Shown here: piece after piece, positions 22,189-63,133 of the stretch
Numbering within the stretch: position 1 is the first letter of the stretch
Layout: each line of letters starts with the position of its first letter
DNA from: Clostridiales bacterium
GTDB taxonomy: Bacteria > Bacillota > Clostridia > Oscillospirales > Oscillospiraceae
DNA: 64,000 bases
Reading direction: 5' to 3'
NCBI GenBank assembly: GCA_029268065.1
Contig: JAJUHC010000011.1
Coordinates: 1-64,000 of the forward strand
Position numbers and translations under genes: made by a program
The notes under the pieces: model-generated
Database searches by the model: none
Told to the model about the DNA's origin: nothing
The model's input: the letters and a program-made list of their open reading frames with translations, nothing else

Positions 22189-25100
22189 ATGCTACAGCTT
22201 GACGGATACAAAATATATGAAGAGCTCTCAAAAAACAGGAACTCGACCATTTACAGGGGTGTCCGCGAGTCCGACAGCGCTCCGGTCATCGTAAAACTGC
22301 TGAACAGGGAATACCCGTCGTCCGAGGAGCTGGCTGATTTTACCCGCGAGTACGAGCTTATGGAAAGACTCGCCTGCGACGGTATAGTGAAGGCGTATGC
22401 GATGGTAAAAACCCAGAACAGCCTTGCCATAATCATGGAGGACATCGGCGGAGAAGCGGTTTCAAGGATACTGAAGACGGTAAAGCTCACTTACGCTGAA
22501 AAGCTTTCGCTTGCAATACTCATGACCCGTGCGCTCATACAGCTTCACAAGATGAACATAATCCATAAGGATATCAATCCGACCAACTTCATTTGGAACA
22601 TGGAAACGAACCGGCTCGTTATAATAGATCTGGGAATCTCCGCAGAGATCCCCAGGGAGTCCCTGCAGAGCGCAAACCCGGATGTTCTGGAGGGGACGCT
22701 TGATTATATATCTCCCGAACAGACGGGAAGAACGAACAGACCCGTGGATTACAGGACCGATCTTTATTCCCTTGGTATCACCTTTTACGAAGTATTCACG
22801 GGGCGCCTGCCGTTCACGGGAGACGACGATTTGGATATCGTTTACTCGCATATAGCGAAGCCGCCGGTTCCCCCCGTCGAAATCGACGGGCATATGCCGG
22901 AGATAATCTCCCGCATAATACTGAAGCTTATTTCGAAGGCCCCCGAGGAGAGGTACCAGTCGGCGGTCGGGCTTTTGAGGGACCTTGAATACTGCCGGCA
23001 GAATCTGAACTCCGGGATGGGGGCCGACCTTTTCTTCAGCCCGGGGCGGGGAGACGTCCTCGGCAGATTTGAGATACCCAAAAAGCTATACGGGCGTGAG
23101 GCCGAAATTGGAATCCTGCTTGACGGCTTTGAGCGTGTCGCCGAAGGCGGAACCGAGCTCCTGCTGGTAAGCGGGTATTCGGGTATCGGGAAATCCACGC
23201 TCATAAACGAGATACGCAAGCCGATAACCGGGAGAAAGGGATATTTTGTTTCGGGGAAGTTCAACCAGTACGAACGCCACGTTCCGTATTACGGCTTTGC
23301 GAGGGCGCTGAAAAGCCTTGTAAGGCAGCTGCTTTCAGAGCCTCAGCAGAGCCTCGACGAATGGAGGCGTCGGATACTGGAGGCGCTTGGAATCTCAGGG
23401 CAGATAATACTTGACTTAATACCCGAGCTCGAGCAAATCACGGGCCCGCAGCAGCAGCTGACGGAAACCGGTCCTCTTGAGGCGCAAAACCGTTTTCAGA
23501 TGACTTTTCTCAGCTTCCTGAACGTTTTCGCGAGGGCGGAGCATCCTCTGGTCATATTCCTGGACGACCTCCAGTGGAGCGACACCCCCACGCTTGAGCT
23601 TATCAAATACATTCTGACCAAGGGAGATATGAAGTATCTTCTGATTATCGGCGCGTACAGGGACAACGAGGTGCTGGAGGGGCACCCCCTGCTTCAGCTT
23701 ATTGAAGACCTTGGGAAGGAGCGGAGGGGAGCGTATCCTCTATTTCGGGAAATATTCCTGGAGCCGCTGGACTTTCCCGCCGCAAACGAGCTGGTCGCCG
23801 AAGCTCTGCATATGCCGCAGGAGTCCGCCGAGCCCCTGACGAGAATCGTCTATCAGAAAACAAAGGGGAATCCGTTCTTCTTAAGCAGGCTTCTGAACTC
23901 TCTTTATCAGCAGGGGAGCTTCACCTTCGTTCCCGAAAGGGGCCAGTGGGTCTATGACCTTAACAAGGTCGAGGAAGCGGAAATCAGCGATAATGTGATT
24001 GATTTGCTTGTTAAGGGCCTGGAATCGCTGCCTGCCGGAACTATGGACATTCTCAAGCTGGCCGCTTGCATAGGCAATCGCTTCGATCTGTCCGCCGTTT
24101 CGCTCATAAGCGGAAAATCCATGGACTCGGTCGGAAGGGACATATGGGCCGCCATGGAAAAGGAGCTGATAATTCCTCTTGACAATAACTTCCGCTTCCT
24201 GAGCACGCCGGGCTTGGACACGGTCCGAAGCGAGCTGGAAATGCATTTTTGCTTTGCTCACGACCGTATTCGGCAGGCCGTGTACTCGCTTATACCGGAA
24301 AGTGAAAGAAAAACGCTGCAGCTTCGCATAGGCAATGAATATCTCAGGCTCTTCCGCGAATCCAAACGTGAGGACGGTCTTTTCGATACCGTCAACCACC
24401 TGAATAACGCGGGGGAGCTTATTTCGGCAAGGGCTGATCGGCTTGAAATGATGGAGCTTAATTTCCTTGCGGGCAAAAAAGCAAAAAAGTCCACCGCTTT
24501 TTCGGTAGCGTTCAGTTATTTTAAAACGGCGGAAGCATGGCTAAGCCCCGAGGAGTGGGAGGGACTTCCCGATAAGCACTTTTCGCTGCTGATGGAGCAG
24601 GCGTACTCGTCTCTGCTCTCCGGAGAGCTCGACAAAGCCGAGGAGCTTTGCGTGCGTTTGTCGGACAAAGCAGAGAACAAGCTCGACCGGGGCGCCCTGT
24701 CAAACCTGAAGATATTGTTGTATATCTTTCAGGGCAAGCTGCAGGAGACGATAGAAGAGGCGAGGAGGGCCCTGCTGCTTTTTGACGTTATTCTGCCCAA
24801 AAGCGGTGAGGAGATTCGACATAAAACCGAGGAAGGGATTTCCAAGATGAAGCGATTCCTTACGGGGGTGACGGTCGAAAAGCTCGTCGGGCTCCCCCGA
24901 ATGCGGGATCCGGAAAAGCTTATGGCTATGCAGCTTCTGGCCGCGGTGATTCCGCCCGCGATTCAGGTTGAGCCGGAGATTTTCACGCTCGCGTCGCTCA
25001 TGATGCTCGAGCTGACGCTGACCTGCGGAACCTCGCCCCTGTCATGCAAAAACTTCGGAGACTGCGGCGTTATTTTCGGCTCGGTGCTTTCGGATTACGA

Positions 25101-51199: not shown

Positions 51200-52267
51200 C
51201 TAGTCGTTTTTCATCATAAGTACATACGCAAGCTCCGTTCTGCTGTTGGTTCCGGTTTTCTTATAGATGTTTTTAATATGGGTTTTGACTGTGTTCTCGG
51301 AAATATTCAAAGCGTGGGCGATGCTCTGGTTGTTTTTTCCCTGTATAAGCTCGTCGATCACCTCTGCCTCTCTCGCGGAGAATTTATACTTATAGTCCTG
51401 AGTGTTCTTGCCGTCAAACACGAACTCCATAATCACTATAAATCTGACGCCGTTATTATGAACACCGGGATCTCTGGAAAGTACATCAAGGCGAATGTCG
51501 CTGCCGGGAACATCAACCGTCGAGGAGGCAAACCTTGCGCCGGACTTGCTGCAGCCCTGCTGAGATGAAGATATGCTTCGGCAAAACTCCTTTGCGTGGT
51601 AGAGAACGCTCGAGCCGAATTTTGTCGTTATCCGGAGCATATCCATTCCGACCGCATTGCCGCCCGTAAGTGTCAGCTCATCGTCGAAAAGGCAGATGCC
51701 CTTCTGACCGTTCGCCTGTCCGCCGGACTCGACGGACTTGACCGAGTTGATGGTGTGAATAATGTTGAAAACCGTAGAAACATGAGGCTGCAAAAGACTG
51801 AGCGTGAACATATCCTCATCGCTGAAATCGGGCTTCTGCCTGCTCCTGTGGAGATAAATTTCGCCCATAAACTGGCCTTTATAAACTATCCTCACGCAGG
51901 CTATGTGGAAATCATCCTGCCCGCTGATAAAGCTTCTCCGCGGCTCAAAGGGAACGGTTATCATACCTTTCTTGTAGTCGGAGGCTTTGTAGACATACGC
52001 TTCTTTGCCGATCAGGGCGGAATCGGGCCAGGAGGAAGGCCCTGGGTTTTCAAAAGAGCTTTTTTCGTAATAGTCCTTTATGTTGCCGCTCGTATAGGGT
52101 TTAAAAAAGCTGCAGTCACGGCTTATGCTGCAGTAAAACATTCCGCTGTCATACTGCAAAAGGCTGTGCAGCTTTAAAATTGAGTGCTTCAGAAAATCGG
52201 CGAAGGACAGGGAGTCGTAGCATTCGTTGACAAACTGATTTATTGCAAGTACCTTTGAGTTATCCAC
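51200..52267 (-). CDS. LuxR-type (GerE HTH) transcriptional regulator
   Basis: A 355-residue regulator. The C-terminal GerE/LuxR helix-turn-helix (about residues 292-352) shows FSAREAEVIDELIQGKNNQSIA and NISENTVKTHIKNIYKKTG. The N-terminal about 280 residues look like a GAF/autoinducer-type sensory domain of unknown ligand; no receiver domain is present. The start is GTG with AGGAGG eight bases before it. It is the first gene of a two-gene unit with the SLH surface protein. A 20-base palindrome lies 34 bases upstream (52301-52320), where self-regulation could act. Confidence 0.9.
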   Translation of the reverse strand: MDNSKVLAINQFVNECYDSLSFADFLKHSILKLHSLLQYDSGMFYCSISRDCSFFKPYTSGNIKDYYEKSSFENPGPSSWPDSALIGKEAYVYKASDYKKGMITVPFEPRRSFISGQDDFHIACVRIVYKGQFMGEIYLHRSRQKPDFSDEDMFTLSLLQPHVSTVFNIIHTINSVKSVESGGQANGQKGICLFDDELTLTGGNAVGMDMLRITTKFGSSVLYHAKEFCRSISSSQQGCSKSGARFASSTVDVPGSDIRLDVLSRDPGVHNNGVRFIVIMEFVFDGKNTQDYKYKFSAREAEVIDELIQGKNNQSIAHALNISENTVKTHIKNIYKKTGTNSRTELAYVLMMKND

Positions 52268-52355: not shown

Positions 52356-52414
52356 CAAAAAATCACCCGAAAGGGTGAAATACCGACTAAAATGTCGATT
52401 CTGATACAAATCAG
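52356..52414 (-). terminator. Terminator and two small stems upstream of the luxR-type gene
   Basis: On the minus strand, stems at 52401-52414 and 52384-52397 are followed by TCACCC/GGGTGA (52363-52378) and a T-run. This is an intrinsic terminator for an RNA made leftwards from the riboswitch region, although no gene is seen there. The sequence from 52415 to 52675 is AT-rich with no supported gene. Confidence 0.55.
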
Positions 52415-52675: not shown

Positions 52676-52703
52676 TTGACAATAGAAAAAGTTGTATTAT
52701 TAT
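52676..52703 (+). promoter_or_regulatory. Promoter of riboswitch 1
   Basis: TTGACA (52676-52681), a 16-base spacer and TATTAT (52698-52703), about 65 bases before the first c-di-GMP-I aptamer. Confidence 0.7.
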
Positions 52704-52769
52704 TTAAATACAAATATATGGTGCCTAATCCGCGGCGGACCCAGCGCCTGGTTTTATGTACAAACAATG

Positions 52770-52860
52770 ATATATGTCGGTAAACCTGCCGAAAGGCAGG
52801 GGCACAAAGCTAAAGGGCCTAAAGGTGAAAACCAATGGCAGCCAGTTGCCTGAGATACGA
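52770..52860 (+). ncRNA. Cyclic di-GMP-I (GEMM-I) riboswitch 1
   Basis: The aptamer is recognised by GGTAAACC, a CTGCC-GAAA-GGCAG hairpin with the docking GAAA tetraloop, the core GCACAAAGCTAAAGGGCC, and a second stem with GGCAGCCAGTTGCC. A terminator follows at 52898-52923, so it should act by transcription control. No gene lies between it and riboswitch 2. Confidence 0.88.
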
Positions 52861-52897
52861 GAATGGAGTCTTTCCATTCGTTGTATTCTGTTCGGAC

Positions 52898-52923
52898 AAC
52901 TGCTGCATTGTCGGCAGTTTTTT
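52898..52923 (+). terminator. Expression-platform terminator of riboswitch 1
   Basis: AACTGC/GCAGTT with a ten-base loop and a run of six T. A separate small stem (GAATGGA/TCCATTC) sits between aptamer and terminator. Confidence 0.7.
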
Positions 52924-53404
52924 GTTTTGTATTTTGTGAAAAATGAACAATCGCGTTTTTGCCGGGAGGTTGGGTCAAAAAAATGATGTCGAGAGCTGAC
53001 GAATTATAGGATGTTTTGCGGAGGTCAGGAGACCATAAAAAGCGTGCGTTAACCTGTGAAATGAGCGCCGGAAGGATACAAAAAAGCGGATTTTGAATTG
53101 TGGTCCTCGAGCAAGTAAAACACACTATATTGTGTCCTAATACAAATGGATAATATATATATTGAATACTCCCTGTTTAAGAATGAAGTCCTGCAAGCCT
53201 TGCGGAAGAGACTATACATATTGCGGTCTGCCGCTTATAATGAGCGATTTTAACGCGCGAGGACTGATATAACGCTTCTCGCTCCAAAAAGCAAGCGGCG
53301 TGATTTTGGCCAGTAATCCGGAGCGTTTTTTTAACGAGCCGGTTTCGGCGGTTCCTGTCCGGTAAGGTGCGGATGCATCATAATCGGCTGCTTTAAGACG
53401 GCGG
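52924..53404 (+). other. Gene-free spacer between the two riboswitches
   Basis: No coding frame with a ribosome site and a protein-like product is visible on either strand. The region may be a decayed gene or simply the leader of one long transcript through both riboswitches. Confidence 0.5.
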
Positions 53405-53432
53405 TTGTTTTTATCCGGCGGGATCGTATATG
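53405..53432 (+). promoter_or_regulatory. Possible promoter of riboswitch 2
   Basis: TTGTTT (53405-53410), a 16-base spacer and TATATG (53427-53432). It is a weaker match than the riboswitch 1 promoter. Confidence 0.4.
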
Positions 53433-53449
53433 ACATATCCCACAAAATT

Positions 53450-53545
53450 GCATAATTGGTAAACCTGCCGAAAGGCAGGGGCACAAAGCTAAAGGGCCTA
53501 AAGGTGAAAGCCTAAGGCAGCCAGTTGCCCGTAATGCGGACTTCG
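53450..53545 (+). ncRNA. Cyclic di-GMP-I (GEMM-I) riboswitch 2, leader of the flagellar operon
   Basis: The aptamer core is almost identical to riboswitch 1 over some fifty bases (GAAA tetraloop hairpin, GCACAAAGC, GGCAGCCAGTTGCC), then diverges in the platform. Its terminator at 53575-53597 precedes flgB by about 80 bases, so ligand binding should decide transcription of the flagellar genes. Confidence 0.9.
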
Positions 53546-53574
53546 AAAGCGGATGACGTATTAAGGCTCAACAG

Positions 53575-53597
53575 CTGCTGCAATAGAGCAGTTTTTT
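53575..53597 (+). terminator. Expression-platform terminator of riboswitch 2
   Basis: CTGCT/AGCAG stem followed by seven T. It is the last control element before flgB. Confidence 0.75.
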
Positions 53598-53678
53598 TGC
53601 CGCTAAAATTAGGGCAAATAAAAATATAGTACAATAAATAAAAATATTTTACAAAACCATACGGGAATGCAGGTGTGA

Positions 53679-54029
53679 ATGATGTTTGAACTTCAAGGAT
53701 CCGCGTTAATGGAGAAATCATTGGATGCGCTGTGGATGCGACAGAAAACGATAGCAAACAACCTGGCGAATATCGATACCCCAGGCTACAAAAGCCGGGA
53801 AGTAAGTTTCGAGAAGTATTTGAAGGAGAACGGCGACATGAACAATATCCCAGACCCGGAGGTAGTCATAAATGATTCGACCTCGCTGAGGGAGGACGGC
53901 AACAACGTTGACGTCGACAAGGAAGGCGTTGAGCTTTACAGGGTGCAGATCCAGTACGATTACATGGTCAGAAAGATTTCAGACGAGTTTAAAAACATCA
54001 AGATCGTGTTGACGGAAGGCAGGGGATAA
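53679..54029 (+). CDS. flgB: Flagellar basal-body rod protein FlgB
   Basis: Proximal rod subunit exported by the flagellar type III system. The N-terminal rod motif LWMRQKTIANNLANIDTPGYK (about residues 18-38) is typical, and the C-terminal helix carries the paired rod sequence. At 116 residues it has the normal length. It starts with ATG (a second ATG follows directly) behind AGGTG. It is the first gene of the flagellar operon, downstream of riboswitch 2, and ends three bases before flgC. Confidence 0.96.
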   Translation: MMFELQGSALMEKSLDALWMRQKTIANNLANIDTPGYKSREVSFEKYLKENGDMNNIPDPEVVINDSTSLREDGNNVDVDKEGVELYRVQIQYDYMVRKISDEFKNIKIVLTEGRG

Positions 54030-54031
54030 GG

Positions 54032-54463
54032 ATGGCGTTTTTATCAAGTCTTAACATAGGCGGCTCGGCCCTTACGGCGCAGAGGCTCCGCATGGACGTT
54101 ATTTCTCAGAATATTTCGAATACGGAAACGACAAGGACTCAAAGCGGAGCGCCGTACTACAAAAAATCCGTAGTGATGCGGGAACGCCCCGGCAGCTTTT
54201 CGGGGGTACTGAACGGGGAGTCCGAAAAGGTCGGAAGCGGTGTCGAGATCTCGAGCATCGTCCAGGACGAGGGAGCGGTTAAGCTTGTTTACAATCCCTC
54301 GCATCCCGACGCCGACGAAAACGGGTACGTAAGGTATCCCGACATCGATTCGGTGAAGGAAATGATGGACATGATGTCCGCCACAAGATCATTTGACGCA
54401 AATATCACGTCGATCAACGCGGTGAAGAGCATGGCGTCAAGCGCCCTTCAAATCGGCAAATAG
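54032..54463 (+). CDS. flgC: Flagellar basal-body rod protein FlgC
   Basis: Proximal rod protein partnered with FlgB. The N-terminal rod motif (LRMDVISQNISNTETTRT) and the C-terminal DMMSATRSFDANITSINAVKSM helix are both clear. At 143 residues it has the normal length. ATG follows AAGGCAGGGGA. It is tightly coupled to flgB and is followed by fliE in the usual order. Confidence 0.96.
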   Translation: MAFLSSLNIGGSALTAQRLRMDVISQNISNTETTRTQSGAPYYKKSVVMRERPGSFSGVLNGESEKVGSGVEISSIVQDEGAVKLVYNPSHPDADENGYVRYPDIDSVKEMMDMMSATRSFDANITSINAVKSMASSALQIGK

Positions 54464-54499
54464 CTGCGAGAAAAGAATCATGATTAACGGAGGAGAGTT

Positions 54500-54802
54500 A
54501 TGAATATCAGTCCCGTAAGTTCTGTGGGCGCGGTAAGCGATATCACCAGAACTTCTAATACGAACAAGACCACAAACGGAGGCAGCGATTTCAGCCAGAT
54601 TTTCAAGGATCTCATAAACAACGTAAACGAGGCGGACCGCACATCCAAGGAGGATATTTACAAGATAGCCTCGGGAAATGCCGATGACCTTCACAGCATA
54701 ACGATTAACTCAGAAAAAGCGGAGCTTGCGACGCTGATGCTCGTACAGGTAAGGAACAAGGTGCTGGACGCGTACAACGAGATAATGAGAGTGACTTTAT
54801 AA
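54500..54802 (+). CDS. fliE: Flagellar hook-basal body protein FliE
   Basis: Small adaptor joining the MS ring (FliF) to the rod. The 100-residue protein has the FliE pattern of a polar N-terminus, FSQIFKDLINNVNEA in the middle and the C-terminal VQVRNKVLDAYNEIMRVTL helix. ATG follows GGAGGAGAG. It lies between flgC and fliF, as in other Firmicutes. Confidence 0.95.
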   Translation: MNISPVSSVGAVSDITRTSNTNKTTNGGSDFSQIFKDLINNVNEADRTSKEDIYKIASGNADDLHSITINSEKAELATLMLVQVRNKVLDAYNEIMRVTL

Positions 54803-54829
54803 AATTATTATTGAAACCGGTGGGTTCCT

Positions 54830-56383
54830 ATGATGAATAAGGTAAAGCTTTATTTCAGCAAGATAACGAATTATATAAAGAAACTCGACGGCAAAAAAAG
54901 AAACCTGTATCTGATCATTTTCGGAGTCGCCGTAACGGCCTCGGTACTGTCGGCGGTGTTGCTGAATCATAAGGATTATGTGGTCCTTTACAGAAACCTT
55001 GACACGAAAGAGTGCGCGGACATAGTCAAAAGACTGGACGAGATGAAAATATCATCAAAGGTGGAAAACGGAAGCACTATATACGTCGAAAAGAAAGACG
55101 AACCGAAGGTAAAGCTGCAGCTTGCATCCGAGGGATACCCCAAGTCCTCCTTGAACTACGATATTTTCACGCAGAATATCAATCTTATGACTACGGACTA
55201 CGAAAAGACGAAGTACAATCTCTTTCTTTTGCAGGAAAGGCTTCAGGGCTCGATTAAAACGCTCGAAAACGTGAAGGACGCTATCGTTACGATAAGCATC
55301 CCCGACAACAGCACCGCGGTGCTGGACAAGGACAAGATCCCGCCGAGCGCGTCGGTGGTTCTGAACCTGATGAACGGCGTGACGCTGACCGAGAAGCAGA
55401 TAAAGGGAATAGAGCTGCTGGTTTCAAAGAGCGTGCCGGGACTTACCACAAAGAATGTGTCTCTTATCGATCAGTCCGGAAAGGTGCTTAACGATTCTTC
55501 CTCGGACGGCCTGCTCGCATCCACCTCGGAGCGGGTGAAAGCTGAAAACGATATATCGACGATGCTGGTAAACAGGATCACGTCGGTCCTGGAGCCGATA
55601 TACGGGAAGAGCAATATAAGCGTCGGCGTGAGCGTAGCCCTCGATTACAGCAAGAAGCTGACCGAAAAGACCGAGTACGCGCCAACAAACGGAAATACGG
55701 GCATCATTAACAACTACCGCCAATCCTACGAAGGCTCGGCAAGCGGCGCGGCCGCCGCTTCCGGAATACCGGGAACGAGCAGCAACTCTACGATTCCGGG
55801 CTACCAGGTGCCTTCGGATAGCGATAATAACCAGAACGTAAAAAACGACGTTAACGTGCAGTTCTTTGTCAATCAGGTGAAGGAGCAGGTCCAAAAGGAC
55901 GGCGCGGATATAAAGGACATAACCGTTTCCGTGCTCATAAACAAAAAGGATATGCCCGCGGACGAGGCTGAGAGAATCACGAAGATCATCGCGAACACCT
56001 CGGGCATAGCAAAGGAAAAGGTTGAGCTCCTCGGCACCGAATTTACCAAAGCGAACAATAAAGTGGTTGTGGAAGCGGCCCCGAAGAACAATCTGTTGAG
56101 CCTGCTCACACCCAAATATCTGATCATCATCGGCGCTGGCGTTCTTCTGCTTCTGGTATTGCTCTTTGTGTTCCTCAAGCTCAGGCGCAAGAAGCGCAGG
56201 GCGCTGGAGAGCATCGTTGCGACCGAAGAAATTGCGCCCGAGAAGGACATTATGGCGGAGTTCGCAAAGATTACGGAGACCAAGGAGCAGCAGCTTACAA
56301 GAGAGATAAGGGAATTCTCGATAAAGACCCCGCAGATAACCGCACAGCTTATAAGAACTCTTCTGAAGGGAGAAATGGATTAG
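54830..56383 (+). CDS. fliF: Flagellar MS-ring protein FliF
   Basis: Membrane ring protein on which the flagellum is built; 517 residues. It has two membrane helices (about residues 25-45 and 425-447) flanking the periplasmic ring-building domains. The first domain shows DYVVLYRNLDTKECADIVKRL, and further on SVPGLTTKNVSLIDQSG matches the family. The C-terminal cytoplasmic tail (about 450-517) binds FliG. The start is one of two tandem ATGs behind GGTGGG. It ends one base before fliG. Confidence 0.96.
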   Translation: MMNKVKLYFSKITNYIKKLDGKKRNLYLIIFGVAVTASVLSAVLLNHKDYVVLYRNLDTKECADIVKRLDEMKISSKVENGSTIYVEKKDEPKVKLQLASEGYPKSSLNYDIFTQNINLMTTDYEKTKYNLFLLQERLQGSIKTLENVKDAIVTISIPDNSTAVLDKDKIPPSASVVLNLMNGVTLTEKQIKGIELLVSKSVPGLTTKNVSLIDQSGKVLNDSSSDGLLASTSERVKAENDISTMLVNRITSVLEPIYGKSNISVGVSVALDYSKKLTEKTEYAPTNGNTGIINNYRQSYEGSASGAAAASGIPGTSSNSTIPGYQVPSDSDNNQNVKNDVNVQFFVNQVKEQVQKDGADIKDITVSVLINKKDMPADEAERITKIIANTSGIAKEKVELLGTEFTKANNKVVVEAAPKNNLLSLLTPKYLIIIGAGVLLLLVLLFVFLKLRRKKRRALESIVATEEIAPEKDIMAEFAKITETKEQQLTREIREFSIKTPQITAQLIRTLLKGEMD

Positions 56384-56384
56384 C

Positions 56385-57398
56385 ATGGCGATTGCAAAAA
56401 TCAAAGGTCTTAACGGCAGGGCAAAAGCCGCGATTATCGCAATTTCGCTCGGAACCGAGTCTGCGGCTGCGGTATTTAAGCACCTGAAGGAAGAAGAGAT
56501 CGAGCAGCTGATAGTGGAAATTTCGAGGATAGGCACCGTGGAGCCCGGCATAACCGAACAGGTCATGGAAGAATTCTACGAAATGTGCCTCGCCCAGAAA
56601 TACATCACCGAAGGCGGAATGGATTTTGCCAAGGAGGTACTGGAAAAGGCGTTCGGCGCTCAGGGAGCGTCGAGTATAATCGAAAAAATCACAAGCACAC
56701 TGAAGGTGAGAGCCTTTGATTTCATAAGAAAAATTGAGCCGCAGTACCTGCTCGGATTTTTGCAGAACGAGCATCCGCAGACGGTAGCGCTTGTGCTTTC
56801 GTACGCGAGGGTAGATCAGGCTTCCCAGATAGTCTCGATGCTCCCCAAGGACAAGCAGCTCGAGGTAATAGAAAGGATGGCCACGCTGGACAGAACCTCG
56901 CCCGAAACCATCAGGGACGTCGAGGCCTCTCTTGAAAAGAAGCTTTCGAGCGTGTTCTCGGACCAGTATATGGAGGCGGGCGGAGTGAAGAACGTCGCCG
57001 AGATACTGAACCATGTGGACAGAAGCACGGAAAAGTACATATCGGAGGAGCTTTTCAAGAGGAACCAGCCCCTGGCTGAGGAGATACGCAAGCGCATGTT
57101 CGTATTCGAGGATATAGTCACCCTTGACGACACTGCGATACAGCGCGTGCTCAGAGAGGTCAATTCAAAGGATCTGATGATAGCCCTCAAGGGCTCCAAC
57201 AGCGACACGCAGGAAATCATCTACGCGAACATGTCGACGAGACTGAGAGACACGATCAAGGAAGAGATACAGTATCTGAGAGGAATAAGAGTCAGAGACG
57301 TCGACGAGGCGCAGCAGAGAATCGTGGATGTGGTCAGAACACTTGAAGAAGCCGGAGAAATAACTATTAGAAGGGGTTTTGACGATGTACTCATCTGA
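56385..57398 (+). CDS. fliG: Flagellar motor switch protein FliG
   Basis: Rotor protein that converts stator torque and switch state; 337 residues. It has three armadillo-like domains, with the N-terminal FliF-binding part, the central EHPQTVALVLSY segment (about 126) and a C-terminal torque helix with charged residues (VTLDDTAIQRVLREV and DLMIALKGS). ATG lies one base after fliF. It overlaps the fliH start by 14 bases. Confidence 0.97.
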   Translation: MAIAKIKGLNGRAKAAIIAISLGTESAAAVFKHLKEEEIEQLIVEISRIGTVEPGITEQVMEEFYEMCLAQKYITEGGMDFAKEVLEKAFGAQGASSIIEKITSTLKVRAFDFIRKIEPQYLLGFLQNEHPQTVALVLSYARVDQASQIVSMLPKDKQLEVIERMATLDRTSPETIRDVEASLEKKLSSVFSDQYMEAGGVKNVAEILNHVDRSTEKYISEELFKRNQPLAEEIRKRMFVFEDIVTLDDTAIQRVLREVNSKDLMIALKGSNSDTQEIIYANMSTRLRDTIKEEIQYLRGIRVRDVDEAQQRIVDVVRTLEEAGEITIRRGFDDVLI

Positions 57399-58155
57399 TA
57401 TTCTGAAAAGGGGCAGGCTCAGCATTACGGAATACTACAATATGCCCGAATTCAGCATGACGGAAACGCACATCACGGAAACGCAAGCCGAGGAAACGGG
57501 GAAGAGCTCTCTGGAAAGCGTGACGCTGAACCCCAAAGCGTCGGAGGAAATGATCAAAAAGGCTCATCTGGATGCCCGCAGGATAATCACTGAGGCTCAG
57601 CAGAGAGCGGAACTCATATGCGAAAAGGCAAAAAAGGACGCGGAAACCCAGCGTCAGGAAGCATTGAAAGAGGCCTTTGAAGAAGGCTACAAGGAAGGGC
57701 TCTCCCAAGGGAAAGCGGAGGCGGAGGCGAGCGAAAAGAATATAATCGACGAGCTTCTCGAGCTGTCTTACTGCCTGACGAACGAAAAACGCGAGATAGC
57801 GGAGAAAAGCCAGAACCTCATACTGGAGCTGGCCGCGGAAATTGCGCGGAAGGTAGTCGGAGACTGTTTTGTCAGGCAGGAAGAAGTGTTTTCGTCAATG
57901 TTCCATAAGGCTGTAAAGGATATGCCGAGCGCACAGAAGCTGACCGTAACGGTCGCGGATAAGGACTACCAGATTATGAGCTATGAGCCGCAGAAGGTTC
58001 TCGAGCAGTGCGAGGAGTTTAAATGCATAGAGCTCTGCCGCGACAAAAACGCGACGGAAGGAACGCTGAAGCTCGAAACGGCCGTAATGCTTCTGGACGC
58101 GGGCATCAACACCCAGATAGGAATGCTGAAGAAGGAAATAGCAAAAACACTCTGA
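57385..58155 (+). CDS. fliH: Flagellar export regulator FliH
   Basis: Dimeric stalk protein that holds and restrains the export ATPase FliI. The N-terminal half is a charged coiled coil with a glycine-spaced EEGYKEGLSQGKAEAEA segment, and the C-terminal domain (about residues 155-257) shows ILELAAEIARKVVG, typical of FliH/YscL. ATG at 57385 is preferred over TTG 57379 because AAGGGG sits eight bases before it. The frame overlaps the fliG end, suggesting coupled translation. Confidence 0.92.
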   Translation: MYSSDILKRGRLSITEYYNMPEFSMTETHITETQAEETGKSSLESVTLNPKASEEMIKKAHLDARRIITEAQQRAELICEKAKKDAETQRQEALKEAFEEGYKEGLSQGKAEAEASEKNIIDELLELSYCLTNEKREIAEKSQNLILELAAEIARKVVGDCFVRQEEVFSSMFHKAVKDMPSAQKLTVTVADKDYQIMSYEPQKVLEQCEEFKCIELCRDKNATEGTLKLETAVMLLDAGINTQIGMLKKEIAKTL

Positions 58156-58177
58156 AAACGAAGGGCGTTGGCAGGCG

Positions 58178-59482
58178 ATGGACATAAGGGTGCTCGAAAG
58201 AATAATAAGCGACTGCGACACCGTGGTCTGCATGGGCAAGGTCGAAAAGGTCATCGGAATGACGGTCGAGGCAACCGGGCTTAACGCCGGTATCGGGGAG
58301 CTGTGCAGAATACGCACCCCTGACGGCAGAACCATTCTGTCGGAGGTTACGGGCTTTCGCGACGAGCGGGTGATAATAATACCCTACGAGGATATCGGGG
58401 GAATATCGCCCGGCAGCTATGTGGAGGCGAGCGGCGAAACGCTGAGCATCTGCGTCGGCGAGGACCTGCGGGGGCGCATACTGGACGGGCTCGGGCGCCC
58501 GATAGACGGCAAGGGGGACTTCGGCGAATCCCTGAAAAAGTACAGCATACAGGCGAAACCGTCGAACCCGCTGACAAGGCCGCGAATAAACGAGCGCATC
58601 AATATGGGAATCAAGGCGATAGATTCCCTCCTGACCTGCGGAGCGGGGCAAAGGATGGGAATATTTTCGGGAAGCGGAGTCGGAAAGAGCACGCTGCTCG
58701 GAATGATAGCGCAAAACGTCGAAGCCGACATAAACGTGATCGCGCTCATTGGCGAACGCGGAAGAGAGGTAAGGGAGTTCATAGAAAGAGACCTTGGTGA
58801 AGAGGGCATGAAGCGCTCGGTCGTCCTTGTGGCAACATCGGATCAGCCCGCAATGATACGCTTAAAATGCGCCTTCGTCGCGACGGCCGTCGCCGAGTAT
58901 TACAGGGACCAGGGGAAAAACGTTATGCTGATGATGGACTCGCTCACCAGGTTCGCTATGGCTCAAAGAGAGGTCGGGCTTGCGACAGGCGAGCCGCCGG
59001 TCGCAAGAGGCTATACCCCGTCGGTCTACGCGCTGCTGCCGAAGCTGCTCGAACGCTCAGGCAAGTTTGATACGGGCTCGATAACGGGGCTTTACACGGT
59101 ACTCGTGGAAGGAGACGACGTGAACGAGCCGATATCGGACACCGTAAGGGGAATACTGGACGGACATCTGGTGCTTTCGAGAAACATCGCGATGAGAAAC
59201 CAGTACCCGGCCATCGACATACTGGGCAGCATAAGCAGGGTCATGAATGATATTGTGAGCGAGGAGCACCTGGAGCTTGCAAACAGTATGCGGAAGATAA
59301 TGTCGCTTTACTATCAGCACTACGATCTTATAAGCATAGGAGCCTATAAGAACGGCTCAAACCCCGAGCTTGACGAGGCGATCGCCAAGATATCCGGGAT
59401 AAATGAGTTTCTGATGCAGAGGAAGGGCACTTCGTTCGATTACGAACAGACCATGGAGCTTATGGGAAAGGCGTTAAGCTGA
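58178..59482 (+). CDS. fliI: Flagellar export ATPase FliI
   Basis: F1-like ATPase that energises flagellar protein export. The Walker A motif FSGSGVGKSTLL (about residue 162) and Walker B with VMLMMDSLTRFAMAQRE (about 248) are intact, and the ATPase signature PSVYALLPKLLERSG (about 280) follows. At 434 residues it has the usual length. ATG has only a modest ribosome site; coupling to fliH, 22 bases upstream, is likely. Confidence 0.97.
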   Translation: MDIRVLERIISDCDTVVCMGKVEKVIGMTVEATGLNAGIGELCRIRTPDGRTILSEVTGFRDERVIIIPYEDIGGISPGSYVEASGETLSICVGEDLRGRILDGLGRPIDGKGDFGESLKKYSIQAKPSNPLTRPRINERINMGIKAIDSLLTCGAGQRMGIFSGSGVGKSTLLGMIAQNVEADINVIALIGERGREVREFIERDLGEEGMKRSVVLVATSDQPAMIRLKCAFVATAVAEYYRDQGKNVMLMMDSLTRFAMAQREVGLATGEPPVARGYTPSVYALLPKLLERSGKFDTGSITGLYTVLVEGDDVNEPISDTVRGILDGHLVLSRNIAMRNQYPAIDILGSISRVMNDIVSEEHLELANSMRKIMSLYYQHYDLISIGAYKNGSNPELDEAIAKISGINEFLMQRKGTSFDYEQTMELMGKALS

Positions 59483-59483
59483 T

Positions 59484-59921
59484 ATGAAAACTTTTAAATT
59501 TCCGGTACAAAGCGTTTTGGACCTCAAAGTAAAGCTGGAGGAAAATGAAAAGGTGCAGCTATTGAAGCTGAAAGCGGCTCTCAACGCGCTGCAGGAGGAG
59601 CTTAAGGTCCTGAAAAACCGCTATGAGCACAGTCTCCTGGAGCGAAGGGTCATGATAGCGGCCGGGATAGCCCCAATAAGACTTGCGGAGATGACGTTGT
59701 ATATCAGAGAAATGGACAGGCAGATCAGCACTAAAAACCGCGAGATAGAAGAGATGCTCGAAGCGATAGAGAAGCAGGCCGAAGTCGTCAAAGAAGCAAA
59801 CAAGGAGACAAAGATGCTCGACAGGCTCAAGGAAAAGCATCTGACGCTTTACAACAAGGCGGTGCAGAAGGAAGACGAGCTTGTGATAGATGATTTTCTG
59901 GCCGGCGTGACCAAACAATAA
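59484..59921 (+). CDS. fliJ: Flagellar export chaperone FliJ
   Basis: A 145-residue, almost wholly helical, charged protein that enters the FliI ring as the gamma-subunit-like rotor. It opens FKFPVQSVLDLKVKLEENEK, which matches the FliJ start, and continues as a coiled coil. Its ATG is one base after the fliI stop, the standard gene order. Confidence 0.93.
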   Translation: MKTFKFPVQSVLDLKVKLEENEKVQLLKLKAALNALQEELKVLKNRYEHSLLERRVMIAAGIAPIRLAEMTLYIREMDRQISTKNREIEEMLEAIEKQAEVVKEANKETKMLDRLKEKHLTLYNKAVQKEDELVIDDFLAGVTKQ

Positions 59922-59946
59922 TGCTGGAAGGCGGGCTTGGTATATT

Positions 59947-61710
59947 ATGATGACTACTGCGGTTCAAATCTACGCAGAACAGAAGACGGAAATAAAGTGC
60001 ACTAATGCGGCGGGAAGAAGCGAAGCCGGCGAGCCCTTCAGCGACTGCCTGAAATCGGTGACGTCTAAGCTGAAATCCGCCGGAGGGAGCAAGGGCGGCA
60101 AAACGCCGGCAGTAAACAAAGCGGAAGAGAACGAAGAGGAAAAAGACGTTTCCGAGGTTTCTCCCGATGCGGTAGCGATGGAAGTCGGAGCGGCGGGCAT
60201 AAGCGCCGTGAAGCTTGGCAATTATGCGGCAGGCGACGGGCAGGACAGCGATCCCGAAGCCGCGGCCGCTGCGGATCCGATGATACCGGAGCCGCGGAAG
60301 GAAATCGGGGAGAGTCAGCTCCGAAGCGAGGCGCAAATGGGCGCTGAGATCCGGGGCGGCGGAAATGGAGGAGCCGCGGGGGCCTTTGCCGGGCTTGTCC
60401 AAGGTACAAAAGCCGCCGCCGAAAAAACGAAGCCTGAAACAGCCTCTGGCGCCGAGGCGGCGAAAGCAGCCGAATATAAGGCGGACCAGTCCGGAAATGC
60501 CGCAAATAAGGCGCAGACGGGAGCGACGGGCAAAACGACGGATATTAACACCGGCGAAAAATCGGGGGACGCTTTAAGCGCCGATACATACGAGAGCGTC
60601 ACATATACAAGGCTCCAGTGGACCGTGAACAGGCTCAGGGAAGAGCAGACCCAAAAGGGAAGCGAAAGCCCGGACAAAGCGGCGGAGGTCAAGGACGCAA
60701 GCCTTTCGGAAGCGATACAGCCTGAAAAAACTTACGCGCAGAGAAACGGCGAATCCGCCTCGGCCGGTAAAGTGTCATCACAGGCGAACGCGTCGGTGCA
60801 GGCCGTAGAAAGCGATACGAAAACGCAGGGCATCGAATCGCTGGCCGCAGGCGAGGAAATCGGAATAAAGGTAACGGAAAATACCGCAGCCGGGACAAAT
60901 GTCGCCGCAGCCGAGGAAAAAAGCGAAGCGCATTCCAAAGGCGAGGCCGCAGCCGAAGCCGCGAGTTCCAAAATGAGCGCTGCAAAACCGGACGCGTACA
61001 TCACAGGCGCCCGGGATACGAATGACACGAATACGACGCCGGCCGTCGGAAAAACGGAACTTAAGGAAGCTTCCTTAAGCGAAAAACAGGACAAGTCCGT
61101 TTTCAAAATCCAGGAGGGCGCAAAAAGCTCCGAGGAAAAGGCAACGTCCGCCGGCTCAAAGAATGAAGACGCGGGAAATAAGGCTTCGGACGGCGAAAAA
61201 ACGCTTGCTTCGGCCGTACCCTTTGCGGAGGTCTACTCCGGCAAGGAAAACGGCATTACCTCCGCGGTAAGCGGCGAGAAAGTGGTGCCGCAGATAGCGC
61301 GGGCGGTAAAAGGAATGACGAGCAAGGACGGCGGAAAGTTCACGATGGAGCTTTCACCCCGTGAGCTTGGAAAAATAACGGTGGAAATGAAGTATTCCCA
61401 GGGGAAGCTGAACGTGGTCATAAACGCCGCGAGCGACGAAACGGCAAAAGCCCTTAAGGCGCAGCTTGGCGAGCTGAAAACAGCCTTAACTGCAAACAAG
61501 GTCGAGATAATGAGCGTTGATGTGAGCGGCAGGCAGAGCTCGGACCTTTCGTTCTCGGATATGAAGGGCTCGGGAGAGAGATACGGCGGCTCCGGCAGGG
61601 GCGGCAGCCAGGGCGGCGACAGTTACTACCGGAGCTACGGCGAAGATCGGGACAGTAAAAGCCCCGAAGCGGTATACGGCTGGAACCAGCTCCTCAACTA
61701 TCTGGTGTAG
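59947..61710 (+). CDS. fliK: Flagellar hook-length control protein FliK
   Basis: Exported ruler protein that ends hook growth; 587 residues. The first about 430 residues are low-complexity, rich in Ala, Glu, Lys, Ser, Gly and Thr, as is normal for the ruler part. The C-terminal Flg_hook domain (about 450-545) shows GGKFTMELSPRELGKITVEM and VVINAASDETAKALKAQL. A Gly/Ser/Tyr-rich tail follows. Start is the first of two ATGs; its ribosome site is distant, so the exact start is less sure. It lies between fliJ and flgD as expected. Confidence 0.93.
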   Translation: MMTTAVQIYAEQKTEIKCTNAAGRSEAGEPFSDCLKSVTSKLKSAGGSKGGKTPAVNKAEENEEEKDVSEVSPDAVAMEVGAAGISAVKLGNYAAGDGQDSDPEAAAAADPMIPEPRKEIGESQLRSEAQMGAEIRGGGNGGAAGAFAGLVQGTKAAAEKTKPETASGAEAAKAAEYKADQSGNAANKAQTGATGKTTDINTGEKSGDALSADTYESVTYTRLQWTVNRLREEQTQKGSESPDKAAEVKDASLSEAIQPEKTYAQRNGESASAGKVSSQANASVQAVESDTKTQGIESLAAGEEIGIKVTENTAAGTNVAAAEEKSEAHSKGEAAAEAASSKMSAAKPDAYITGARDTNDTNTTPAVGKTELKEASLSEKQDKSVFKIQEGAKSSEEKATSAGSKNEDAGNKASDGEKTLASAVPFAEVYSGKENGITSAVSGEKVVPQIARAVKGMTSKDGGKFTMELSPRELGKITVEMKYSQGKLNVVINAASDETAKALKAQLGELKTALTANKVEIMSVDVSGRQSSDLSFSDMKGSGERYGGSGRGGSQGGDSYYRSYGEDRDSKSPEAVYGWNQLLNYLV

Positions 61711-61722
61711 GAGGTAAATAAA

Positions 61723-62253
61723 ATGAGTGTAACAGCATCCTCGGCGGTAACTTCGTCTACCGCAAAAGGAGTATCAACCAAGAGCAGCAGTAAGACGAAC
61801 AAAAACGAACTGTCTATAAACGACTTCTTCACCCTGCTCGCTGCCCAGCTGAAAAATCAAAACATGATGAACCCGGTCAGCAATACTGAATATATCGCTC
61901 AGATGGCGCAGTTTTCCACGCTGTCGGCGACTCAGGAGCTGGGAAAGGCCTTCACAAACTTCATGTCCGTCTCGTACATAGGCAAAAATATCACGGCTTC
62001 ACAAACGGATAAAAACGGGAAAACGACAAAGATAGAGGGCGTGGCCGAAAAGGTCGAGTTTCTGAACGGCAAAACCTACATCACGGTGAACGACACGCGA
62101 ATTACCCCGGACCAGATCACAAAAATCACTAATGTGACGGCCTCAAGCACCTCAAGCACCTCTAGCACCTCGAGCACCTCGGGAACCTCTAGCACTTCGG
62201 GTGACTCGGGAGCATCGGGAACCTCTAGCACCTCGGGCACCTCAGGCACCTGA
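61723..62253 (+). CDS. flgD: Flagellar hook cap protein FlgD with Ser/Thr-repeat tail
   Basis: Scaffold that caps the growing hook. The 176-residue protein has the conserved N-terminal FlgD domain (about residues 25-85; FFTLLAAQLKNQNMMNPVSNTEYIAQMAQFS spans the key region) and a short middle segment with YIGKNITA. The usual C-terminal Ig/Tudor-like domains are missing. The last about 37 residues consist only of Ser, Thr, Gly, Asp and Ala in STSS-type triplets, encoded by a nine-base microsatellite-like repeat (62136-62250). ATG follows AGGAGG. Confidence 0.93.
   Translation: MSVTASSAVTSSTAKGVSTKSSSKTNKNELSINDFFTLLAAQLKNQNMMNPVSNTEYIAQMAQFSTLSATQELGKAFTNFMSVSYIGKNITASQTDKNGKTTKIEGVAEKVEFLNGKTYITVNDTRITPDQITKITNVTASSTSSTSSTSSTSGTSSTSGDSGASGTSSTSGTSGT
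62136..62250 (+). repeat. Nine-base tandem repeat at the flgD 3' end
   Basis: Variants of (T/C)C(A/T/G)AGCACC and TCGGGAACC follow one another in frame, encoding Ser-Thr-Ser and Gly-Thr-Ser triplets. Nine-base slippage would lengthen or shorten the tail without breaking the frame. Confidence 0.85.
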
Positions 62254-62311
62254 GTCCCGGAAACAAAATCACCTACATTAATTATATATTATAATTTGGA
62301 GGAATTTAAAA

Positions 62312-63133
62312 ATGTTGAGATCACTTTATTCGGGAGTCAGCGGACTCAGGAGCCATCAGACAAAGATGGACGTCATAGGCAACAATATAGCGAACGTTAA
62401 CACAACGGCTTTCAAGTCCAGCAGAGTCACATTCAAGGATGTCTACTATCAGACGATGTCGAACGCGGCCGCAAATACCGACATCAAGGGCGGTTCCAAC
62501 CCCAAGCGGATAGGATACGGCTCTACTGTATCCTCGATAGACGTAGTCAACACCAGAGGCGGATACCAGACGACCGACAGAACCCTCGACCTGTATCTTG
62601 ACGGCGAAGGATACTTTGTAGTGCAGGACGAGGCGGGCAACGTAAGCTATACGCGCTGCGGCAACTTCAGCTTCGACGTTCAGGGCGCGCTTGTCGACCC
62701 GAACGGAAACTATGTGGGAGGCGGGACGCCGGAATATTCCGAGGGTTCGGATACTGAGCCGATAATAATAGACAACATCGACGAGTATACCGATATCGCC
62801 ATCGACAGGGACGGTAAAATAACCGGCGTCCTTGACGGCAATGTTGAAACGCTTGGACAGATTGCCGTCGCGAAGTTTAAAAACCCCGAAGGCCTGTCTC
62901 AGCAGGGCGGCATATACTTTAAGGAGACGAAGAACTCGGGCGAGCCCACCCTGACATATCCGGGAGGCTCCGCGACGGGCACCGTGGTTTCCGGAGGACT
63001 CGAAATGTCCAACGTCGACCTTTCCAAGGAACTTACGGATATGATAACGACCGAGAGAGGCTTCCAGGCCAATTCCAGGGTGATAACGGTATCCGACGAA
63101 ATGCTTCAGGAGCTTGTCAATATTAAGAGATAG
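62312..63133 (+). CDS. flgE: Flagellar hook protein FlgE-like (short FlgE/FlgG family)
   Basis: Axial rod/hook protein. The N-terminus carries the family motif MLRSLYSGVSGLRSHQTKMDVIGNNIANVNTTAFK, and the C-terminus ends in DMITTERGFQANSRVITVSDEMLQELVNIKR. At 273 residues it is about the size of FlgG and shorter than most hook proteins, lacking their outer domains. The position after flgD and before flbD and motA is that of flgE in clostridial operons, so hook protein is the preferred call. ATG follows GGAGGAA. Confidence 0.85.
   Translation: MLRSLYSGVSGLRSHQTKMDVIGNNIANVNTTAFKSSRVTFKDVYYQTMSNAAANTDIKGGSNPKRIGYGSTVSSIDVVNTRGGYQTTDRTLDLYLDGEGYFVVQDEAGNVSYTRCGNFSFDVQGALVDPNGNYVGGGTPEYSEGSDTEPIIIDNIDEYTDIAIDRDGKITGVLDGNVETLGQIAVAKFKNPEGLSQQGGIYFKETKNSGEPTLTYPGGSATGTVVSGGLEMSNVDLSKELTDMITTERGFQANSRVITVSDEMLQELVNIKR

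Follow-up and report, generated by a model that had tools for sequence, protein, structure and literature searches.

Two riboswitch aptamers of the c-di-GMP-I class stand ahead of the flagellar operon of the uncultured Clostridiales bacterium considered here (genome G000, an assembly of 2.44 Mb split over 50 contigs, with a completeness of 89%), which raises the question whether both gate motility, one after the other, or whether the first, RS1, is a leftover and the second, RS2, alone controls the operon. The window, i.e. the whole analysed stretch of 64,000 nucleotides, belongs to contig C11. An Rfam cmscan of it returned two RF01051 matches, both full length and on the + strand, which are the only matches in the window at or above the gathering score (35 bits) and exceed it by 36-38 bits (Table 1); they confirm the two tandem c-di-GMP-I riboswitches of the original prediction. 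The aptamers are identical at 74 of 81 bases (91%), including an uninterrupted run of 52 identical bases where near-identity over about fifty had been claimed, and their starts lie 679 nt apart. At the specificity position, which we take to correspond to G20 of the Vc2 structure, all eight c-di-GMP-I aptamers of the genome, RS1 and RS2 included, carry a G. Because G rather than A at this position separates c-di-GMP from cGAMP (c-AMP-GMP) aptamers, as described in part of PMC9481103, cGAMP appears disfavoured as a ligand of RS1 and RS2. The two elements have the layout of tandem riboswitches: they share a strand and one predicted untranslated region, no recognised gene separates them and a terminator belongs to each; the criterion given in an excerpt of PMC12452182 is a distance of 20 nt or more from one aptamer to the next.

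Table 1. Features of the RS1-RS2 leader and the start of the flagellar operon (positions in the window)
Feature	Position	Strand	Basis
Candidate sigma-A promoter P1, long leader	52676..52703	+	TTGACA-16-TATTAT, 11/12 consensus
RS1 c-di-GMP-I aptamer	52769..52853	+	RF01051, 71.5 bits
Possible RS1 antiterminator hairpin	52838..52907	+	z -6.2, 0/200 shuffles
RS1 intrinsic terminator	52898..52925	+	Hairpin 52898-52919, 8-bp stem, then TTTTTT
RS1-RS2 spacer	52925..53447		523 nt, without recognised gene
NrdR-box-like palindrome ACACACTATATTGTGT (box 1)	53120..53135		15/16 to the assumed box; similar to G184 nrdD upstream region
Weaker NrdR-box-like site (box 2)	53150..53165		4 mismatches, 14-bp spacer from box 1
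Weak candidate internal promoter P2	53213..53241	+	TATACA-17-TATAAT, 10/12
RS2 c-di-GMP-I aptamer	53448..53532	+	RF01051, 73.2 bits
RS2 predicted antiterminator hairpin	53517..53581	+	z -2.2, 6/200 shuffles; weaker than that of RS1
RS2 intrinsic terminator	53573..53600	+	Hairpin 53573-53593, 7-bp stem, then TTTTTTT
flgB, first gene of the flagellar operon	53679..54029	+	TIGR01396, 94.3 bits; PF00460

Aptamers, terminators, possible antiterminators and the order of the genes can be read from the sequence. A hairpin with a T run lies 3' of each aptamer, in agreement with the separate terminators that had been postulated. The 5' arm of the RS1 terminator, CAACUGCUGC, is complementary to the 3' arm of the RS1 aptamer, GCAGCCAGUUG, apart from a single bulge; RS2 has the same layout, its aptamer 3' arm being able to pair with the terminator 5' arm. 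In ViennaRNA predictions, which include neither ligand nor pseudoknots, the RS1 antiterminator folds at -33 kcal/mol and is part of the predicted minimum of the full-length RS1 leader (-56.8 versus -52.3 kcal/mol with the terminator), the terminator fold of ligand-free RS2 is ahead by 6-7 kcal/mol (-51.8 versus -46.0 or -44.9), and imposing the Rfam aptamer fold makes the terminator form in both. Since the aptamer 3' arm and the terminator 5' arm can pair as an antiterminator in both units, RS1 and RS2 are both predicted to be OFF switches, in which bound ligand should permit termination. The RS2 antiterminator is not the predicted minimum, so RS2 may lean towards OFF and terminate much of the time even without ligand; the difference in strength between the antiterminators makes for a testable prediction as to which of the gates determines the threshold. 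Between 52000 and 54200, the two strands together contain 9 terminator-like sites (2.1 expected). One terminator-like hairpin with a T run, at 52363-52378 on the - strand, is located upstream of the gene for a LuxR-type regulator (51200-52267, - strand); it could either attenuate this gene or terminate a - strand transcript that comes out of the gap.

As had been claimed, the switches precede a flagellar operon: flgB, recognised by its TIGR01396 match, is followed by a flgC-like gene, fliE, fliF, fliG, the gene of a fliI-like ATPase and one of the flgE/F/G family. In the operon (region 53679-63133), FliF is 22-32% identical to matches in 43 other family genomes (200 searched), and the best FliG matches among named genomes, from clostridia, reach 57-58% identity, figures that come from different genomes and give only a hint of a foreign origin. 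Upstream of RS1, the quality of the candidate promoter P1 is reached by 18 of 1000 shuffles of the preceding 289 nt, and P1 is the better promoter match compared with P2. The second promoter region that had been placed before RS2 is represented by P2, but this candidate is weak, as 83 of 1000 shuffled gaps do equally well. We rejected a sigma-28 promoter in the vicinity of RS1 and RS2; the pattern, presumably representative of this class, matches the window twice, at 23204 and 40169.

We consider it fairly probable that RS1 and RS2 work as independent c-di-GMP-I OFF switches, one after the other, in the flgB operon leader. Promoter, co-transcription, ligand, direction and series action are what we infer in the following scheme: Transcription would start from P1 near 52710. 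At low c-di-GMP, each aptamer would lose its 3' arm to the 5' arm of the terminator behind it, and the polymerase would read on into flgB. At high c-di-GMP, the aptamers would retain their own 3' arms and the terminators would fold; transcription would then stop at ~52925, and transcripts escaping RS1 would end at ~53600, behind RS2. For two equal gates that work independently, theory predicts an expression equal to the square of that of a single gate, hence a tighter shut-off: the half-maximum would fall at 0.41 Kd, and a 40-fold rather than an 81-fold change in ligand would take expression from 90 to 10%. Action in series, one of two options originally put forward, fits best: both switches are intact and have the same predicted OFF layout, and the aptamers of the genome form four tandem pairs. 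The low z-score of the RS1 antiterminator (-6.2) also counts for it, as does the different layout of the ON-type switches of the same genome, which moreover contains 14 GGDEF and 4 EAL matches. Further support comes from the other flgB loci with c-di-GMP-I elements upstream and from two precedents, Cd1 and a triple c-di-GMP-I switch (see below). On the other side, RS2 may terminate much of the time even without ligand, co-transcription would have to extend across 679 nt, an internal promoter would bypass RS1, a search of 399 other family genomes gave no relative sharing the leader, and most surveyed flgB loci are without any c-di-GMP-I element (62 of 69 in one survey and 77 of 80 in another).

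The eight RF01051 matches of G000 constitute tandem pairs on contigs C11 (679 nt start to start), C22 (184 nt), C4 (180 nt) and C2 (131 nt), two of which are OFF-type by predicted layout (C11 and C22) and two ON-type (C4 and C2). On C22, aptamer arm and terminator are complementary, as on C11. On C4 and C2, the terminator starts 5-9 nt ahead of the aptamer end; aptamer and terminator overlap and hence exclude each other, which points to an ON layout. The C4 pair precedes a signal peptidase gene (TIGR02228 above and the SipW model below the cut-off, hence termed SipW-like), the C2 pair a 280-aa protein of unknown function and the C22 pair a long repeat-bearing protein, secreted by appearance. 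A tandem pair is also found ahead of a SipW-like gene in G003 (88% identity), and in G004 a pair is followed by a weaker SipW-like match, with 40% identity across 78 residues; the 1.5-kb flanks of the pairs on G001:C54 and G002:C9 contain no SipW-like gene.

Larger arrays occur as well. Upstream of the C2 pair there is a weak third c-di-GMP-I-like match (L140:6372-6433, - strand; 20.5 bits, E 0.008), which may be a decayed third copy, and in G003 a complete third copy stands ahead of the pair (L142:4716-4800, 64 bits). In G073, five c-di-GMP-I aptamers of 58-66 bits each follow one another head to tail on C12 (L263:2015-2438) at a pitch of 76-91 nt, with no space for terminators between them, and precede an ATG at L263:2480; a second array, on C1 of the same genome (L264:2682-3210), has four. 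For this class, the consulted portion of a survey of tandem riboswitches names doublets and triplets (PMC9481103).

The resemblance of the two aptamers had been taken to suggest a recent duplication or conversion. The cores of RS1 and RS2 are indeed 94% identical, and those within the C22, C4 and C2 pairs 97%, 99% and 93%, respectively; but the C22 copies are nearly as similar to the C11 copies (88-90%), and the downstream platforms of RS1 and RS2, rightly described as different, share 51%, which is in the range of unrelated loci (C22, 85%; C4, 61%; C2, 69%). Because the C22 aptamers are nearly as alike and the RS1 and RS2 platforms have diverged to background, aptamer identity alone is no proof of a recent duplication. 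A recent event thus appears weakly supported, and constraint or conversion among the copies would explain the aptamer identity equally well.

The second of the options put forward, that RS1 is an orphan left after gene loss, is possible, albeit rather unlikely. RS2 would then be the working switch, fed by a promoter in the gap, and RS1 a leftover that formerly served a gene, e.g. an nrd gene, since lost from the gap; RS1 would still terminate P1 transcripts, but its regulation would be of little matter to the flagella. The pitch speaks for such a history: among the 150 RF01051 matches listed in a scan of 200 family genomes, on which this comparison is built, there are 28 same-strand neighbours within 1500 nt, of which 27 lie at 76-270 nt and the C11 pair is the widest; in the genus, other pairs reach at most 339 nt (one neighbour pair, in G003). 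The gap also contains P2, a 10/12 match although a weak one by its shuffles, and its NrdR-box-like pair is similar to the sequence ahead of nrdD in G184. The loss of a second nrdD is conceivable: the G184 gene, whose protein is truncated at the edge of the locus, fits PRK07111 best (below the cut-off), while the single nrdD match of G000, on contig C1, fits PRK08270. On the other hand, tblastn of the leader revealed no remnant of nrdD or nrdG (best E 0.07), no further Rfam match falls under E 3, the remaining pairs of the genome are likewise tandem, and in an assembly that is 89% complete a second nrdD may simply have been missed. A decaying leftover is not supported, because a good promoter match, the aptamer, the antiterminator (z -6.2) and the terminator are all in place in RS1; what stands of the orphan proposal is that gene loss from the gap is conceivable in view of the NrdR-like site. 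The series reading is favoured over it.

The spacer itself (Table 1) is slightly longer than the ~480 gene-free bases originally given and contains no convincing gene. Several candidates for its content were rejected: (i) a repeat or mobile element, as there is no second copy in G000, where the other matches are short and have E-values of 0.3 or worse; (ii) a degenerate third aptamer, which a covariance search of the gap with filters off did not detect; (iii) a known RNA family, the one further Rfam match being at chance level (E 3.1); (iv) unusual RNA structure, none of 12 overlapping windows being notable (z from -1.4 to +1.1), while a 53-nt window on a T-tailed hairpin in the gap gave z -0.3; and (v) a gene, a 36-aa frame being without a Pfam match and the longer frames on the - strand crossing an aptamer in antisense. 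The 36-aa frame, at 53162-53272 on the + strand, starts from TTG, encodes a Cys-rich stretch, CKPCGRDYTYCG, and is probably due to chance. Among 399 other family genomes, one matched the spacer elsewhere, over 38 nt: this match, in G184, sits ~60 nt before nrdD (NrdD by PF13597), and a relative sharing the whole leader did not turn up in this set. Within the genus, three of the four other genomes have FlgB (35-45% identity), on contigs without aptamers.

NrdR is a repressor that senses dATP/ATP. Scored against a consensus that we take to represent the NrdR box, box 1 is the sole site in the window with at most two mismatches (0.01 expected), and in 1.8 Mb of scanned, partly overlapping loci one-mismatch sites are limited to box 1 and the site upstream of nrdD in G184. 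The quality of box 2 is matched in 19 of 5000 mononucleotide-shuffled flanks. The spacer site may either be left over from a gene since lost or be a genuine site of repression. In the latter case, the gap would be a regulatory module, in which NrdR binds 53120-53165 and controls a promoter there, either on the + strand towards RS2 and flgB or on the - strand against RS1, and flagellar synthesis would answer both c-di-GMP and nucleotide pools. We regard this as improbable. The 14-bp spacing of the boxes lies inside the 14-17 bp between the paired sites that NrdR binds, according to part of PMC12051234, and the nrdD of G000 on C1 has a weak-strong box pair of its own, which the strong-weak order in the spacer mirrors when read on the - strand. 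A - strand promoter match (TAAACA-18-TATTAT, 9/12) has its -10 element within box 2, as nrdD promoters do; in E. coli, deletion of nrdR is reported to reduce motility and chemotaxis genes (PMC4898720 in part, citing others). However, the + strand has no strong promoter that overlaps them, and their order, strong before weak, suits the - strand promoter, which leads to no recognisable gene; the pair is not ahead of a ribonucleotide reductase operon either, the next + strand gene being flgB. Box 2 is weak, the motif was noticed post hoc and its consensus is an assumed one. A genome-wide search at up to two mismatches, with one position widened post hoc, found 4 places against 3 and 2 for a reversed control pattern; there is no enrichment of such sites in G000. 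In Pseudomonas, moreover, nrdR deletion lowered no other genes significantly, as far as an excerpt of PMC4898720 goes.

The more far-reaching view, that the flagellar leader integrates two signals, with c-di-GMP-dependent termination gates enclosing an NrdR-controlled promoter and both the gates to be passed and the supply of transcript depending on the nucleotide pool, seems to us quite improbable. The literature searched, which included parts of PMC12051234 and PMC4898720, contained no report of flagellar genes whose leader has a direct operator for NrdR. An nrd neighbourhood of another kind is seen in G001 and G002 (L279, G001:C64; L280, G002:C76), where nrdDG lies ~1.3 kb ahead of an operon of a fliE-like gene and fliF, with fliE and nrdG named by eye; in G000, unlike in these genomes, nrdDG is elsewhere than the flagellar operon. 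FliF of G001 and G002 is just 28-31% identical to that of G000, and between nrdG and fliE no NrdR-like site is found within 3 mismatches.

That the spacer can invert, as does the DNA segment between Cd1 and flgB in the flagellar switch of C. difficile, with imperfect inverted repeats at 52931-52945 and 53434-53448 on its flanks, is extremely improbable: its placement relative to the first switch is the same (PMC5386303, in part) and the repeat arms match at 12 of 15 positions, equalled in the end stretches of 12 of 1000 shuffled gaps, but the arms are short, the pair was chosen post hoc among 26 inverted-repeat pairs listed for the region and an inverted copy is not known.

How unusual, then, are serial OFF switches in front of flgB? 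A survey of the class covered 69 flgB loci from 145 other genomes with a match (29 returned by the search and 40 hand-picked), at least two of which (L196 and L198) hold just ~200 nt upstream of flgB; seven had at least one c-di-GMP-I element upstream, among them one tandem pair (L241, G425). Among 80 named loci derived from FliG matches, 73 of which include more than 500 nt upstream of flgB, three had a single such element and none had two. Tandem pairs in front of flgB are therefore rare, although the C11 pair is not the only one. In G425, too, flgB (TIGR01396) is closely preceded by two c-di-GMP-I aptamers, of 70.1 and 68.7 bits; in contrast to the C11 pair, the pitch of this pair is 193 nt, its units look alike and short U-rich tails follow right after each aptamer. 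In a literature search of titles and abstracts, none was found on a tandem c-di-GMP pair before flgB; the 347 doublets of a published survey may include some.

In that survey, the c-di-GMP-I class is the commonest in tandem, with 347 doublets and 12 triplets, and known pairs have two homologous aptamers per leader with their own terminators and a predicted sharper, pseudo-cooperative response (PMC9481103, in part). The C11 pair shares these traits and differs in its 679-nt pitch, the operator-like palindrome in the spacer and its diverged platforms. Cd1 of Clostridioides difficile, which terminates the flgB leader upon ligand binding, is alike in aptamer class, position at the operon start, termination on ligand (predicted here) and the long leader between first switch and flgB (PMC5386303, in part). 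C. difficile, however, has one switch where G000 has two, and its leader contains a proven invertible segment, G000 just a doubtful repeat pair. The triple switch Bc3-5, also complete c-di-GMP-I units in series, is described as more stringent and digital than its single units in a portion of PMC4759541; it consists of ON switches before surface-protein genes, whereas the C11 units are predicted to be OFF switches before flagellar genes. To judge by sequence, the C11 pair is a well-formed and most likely functional OFF switch with two gates in series, and it belongs to a known kind; unusual about it are the 679-nt pitch and a spacer with an NrdR-box-like palindrome.

The C11 pair adds a clear case of serial c-di-GMP OFF switches that are predicted to gate motility. 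If the operator in the spacer works, RNA-based sensing of c-di-GMP and protein-based sensing of nucleotide pools would be joined on one leader. With serial OFF switches predicted on motility and serial ON switches on the SipW-like operon of the same genome, the choice between motile and sessile life would be made in RNA on both sides.
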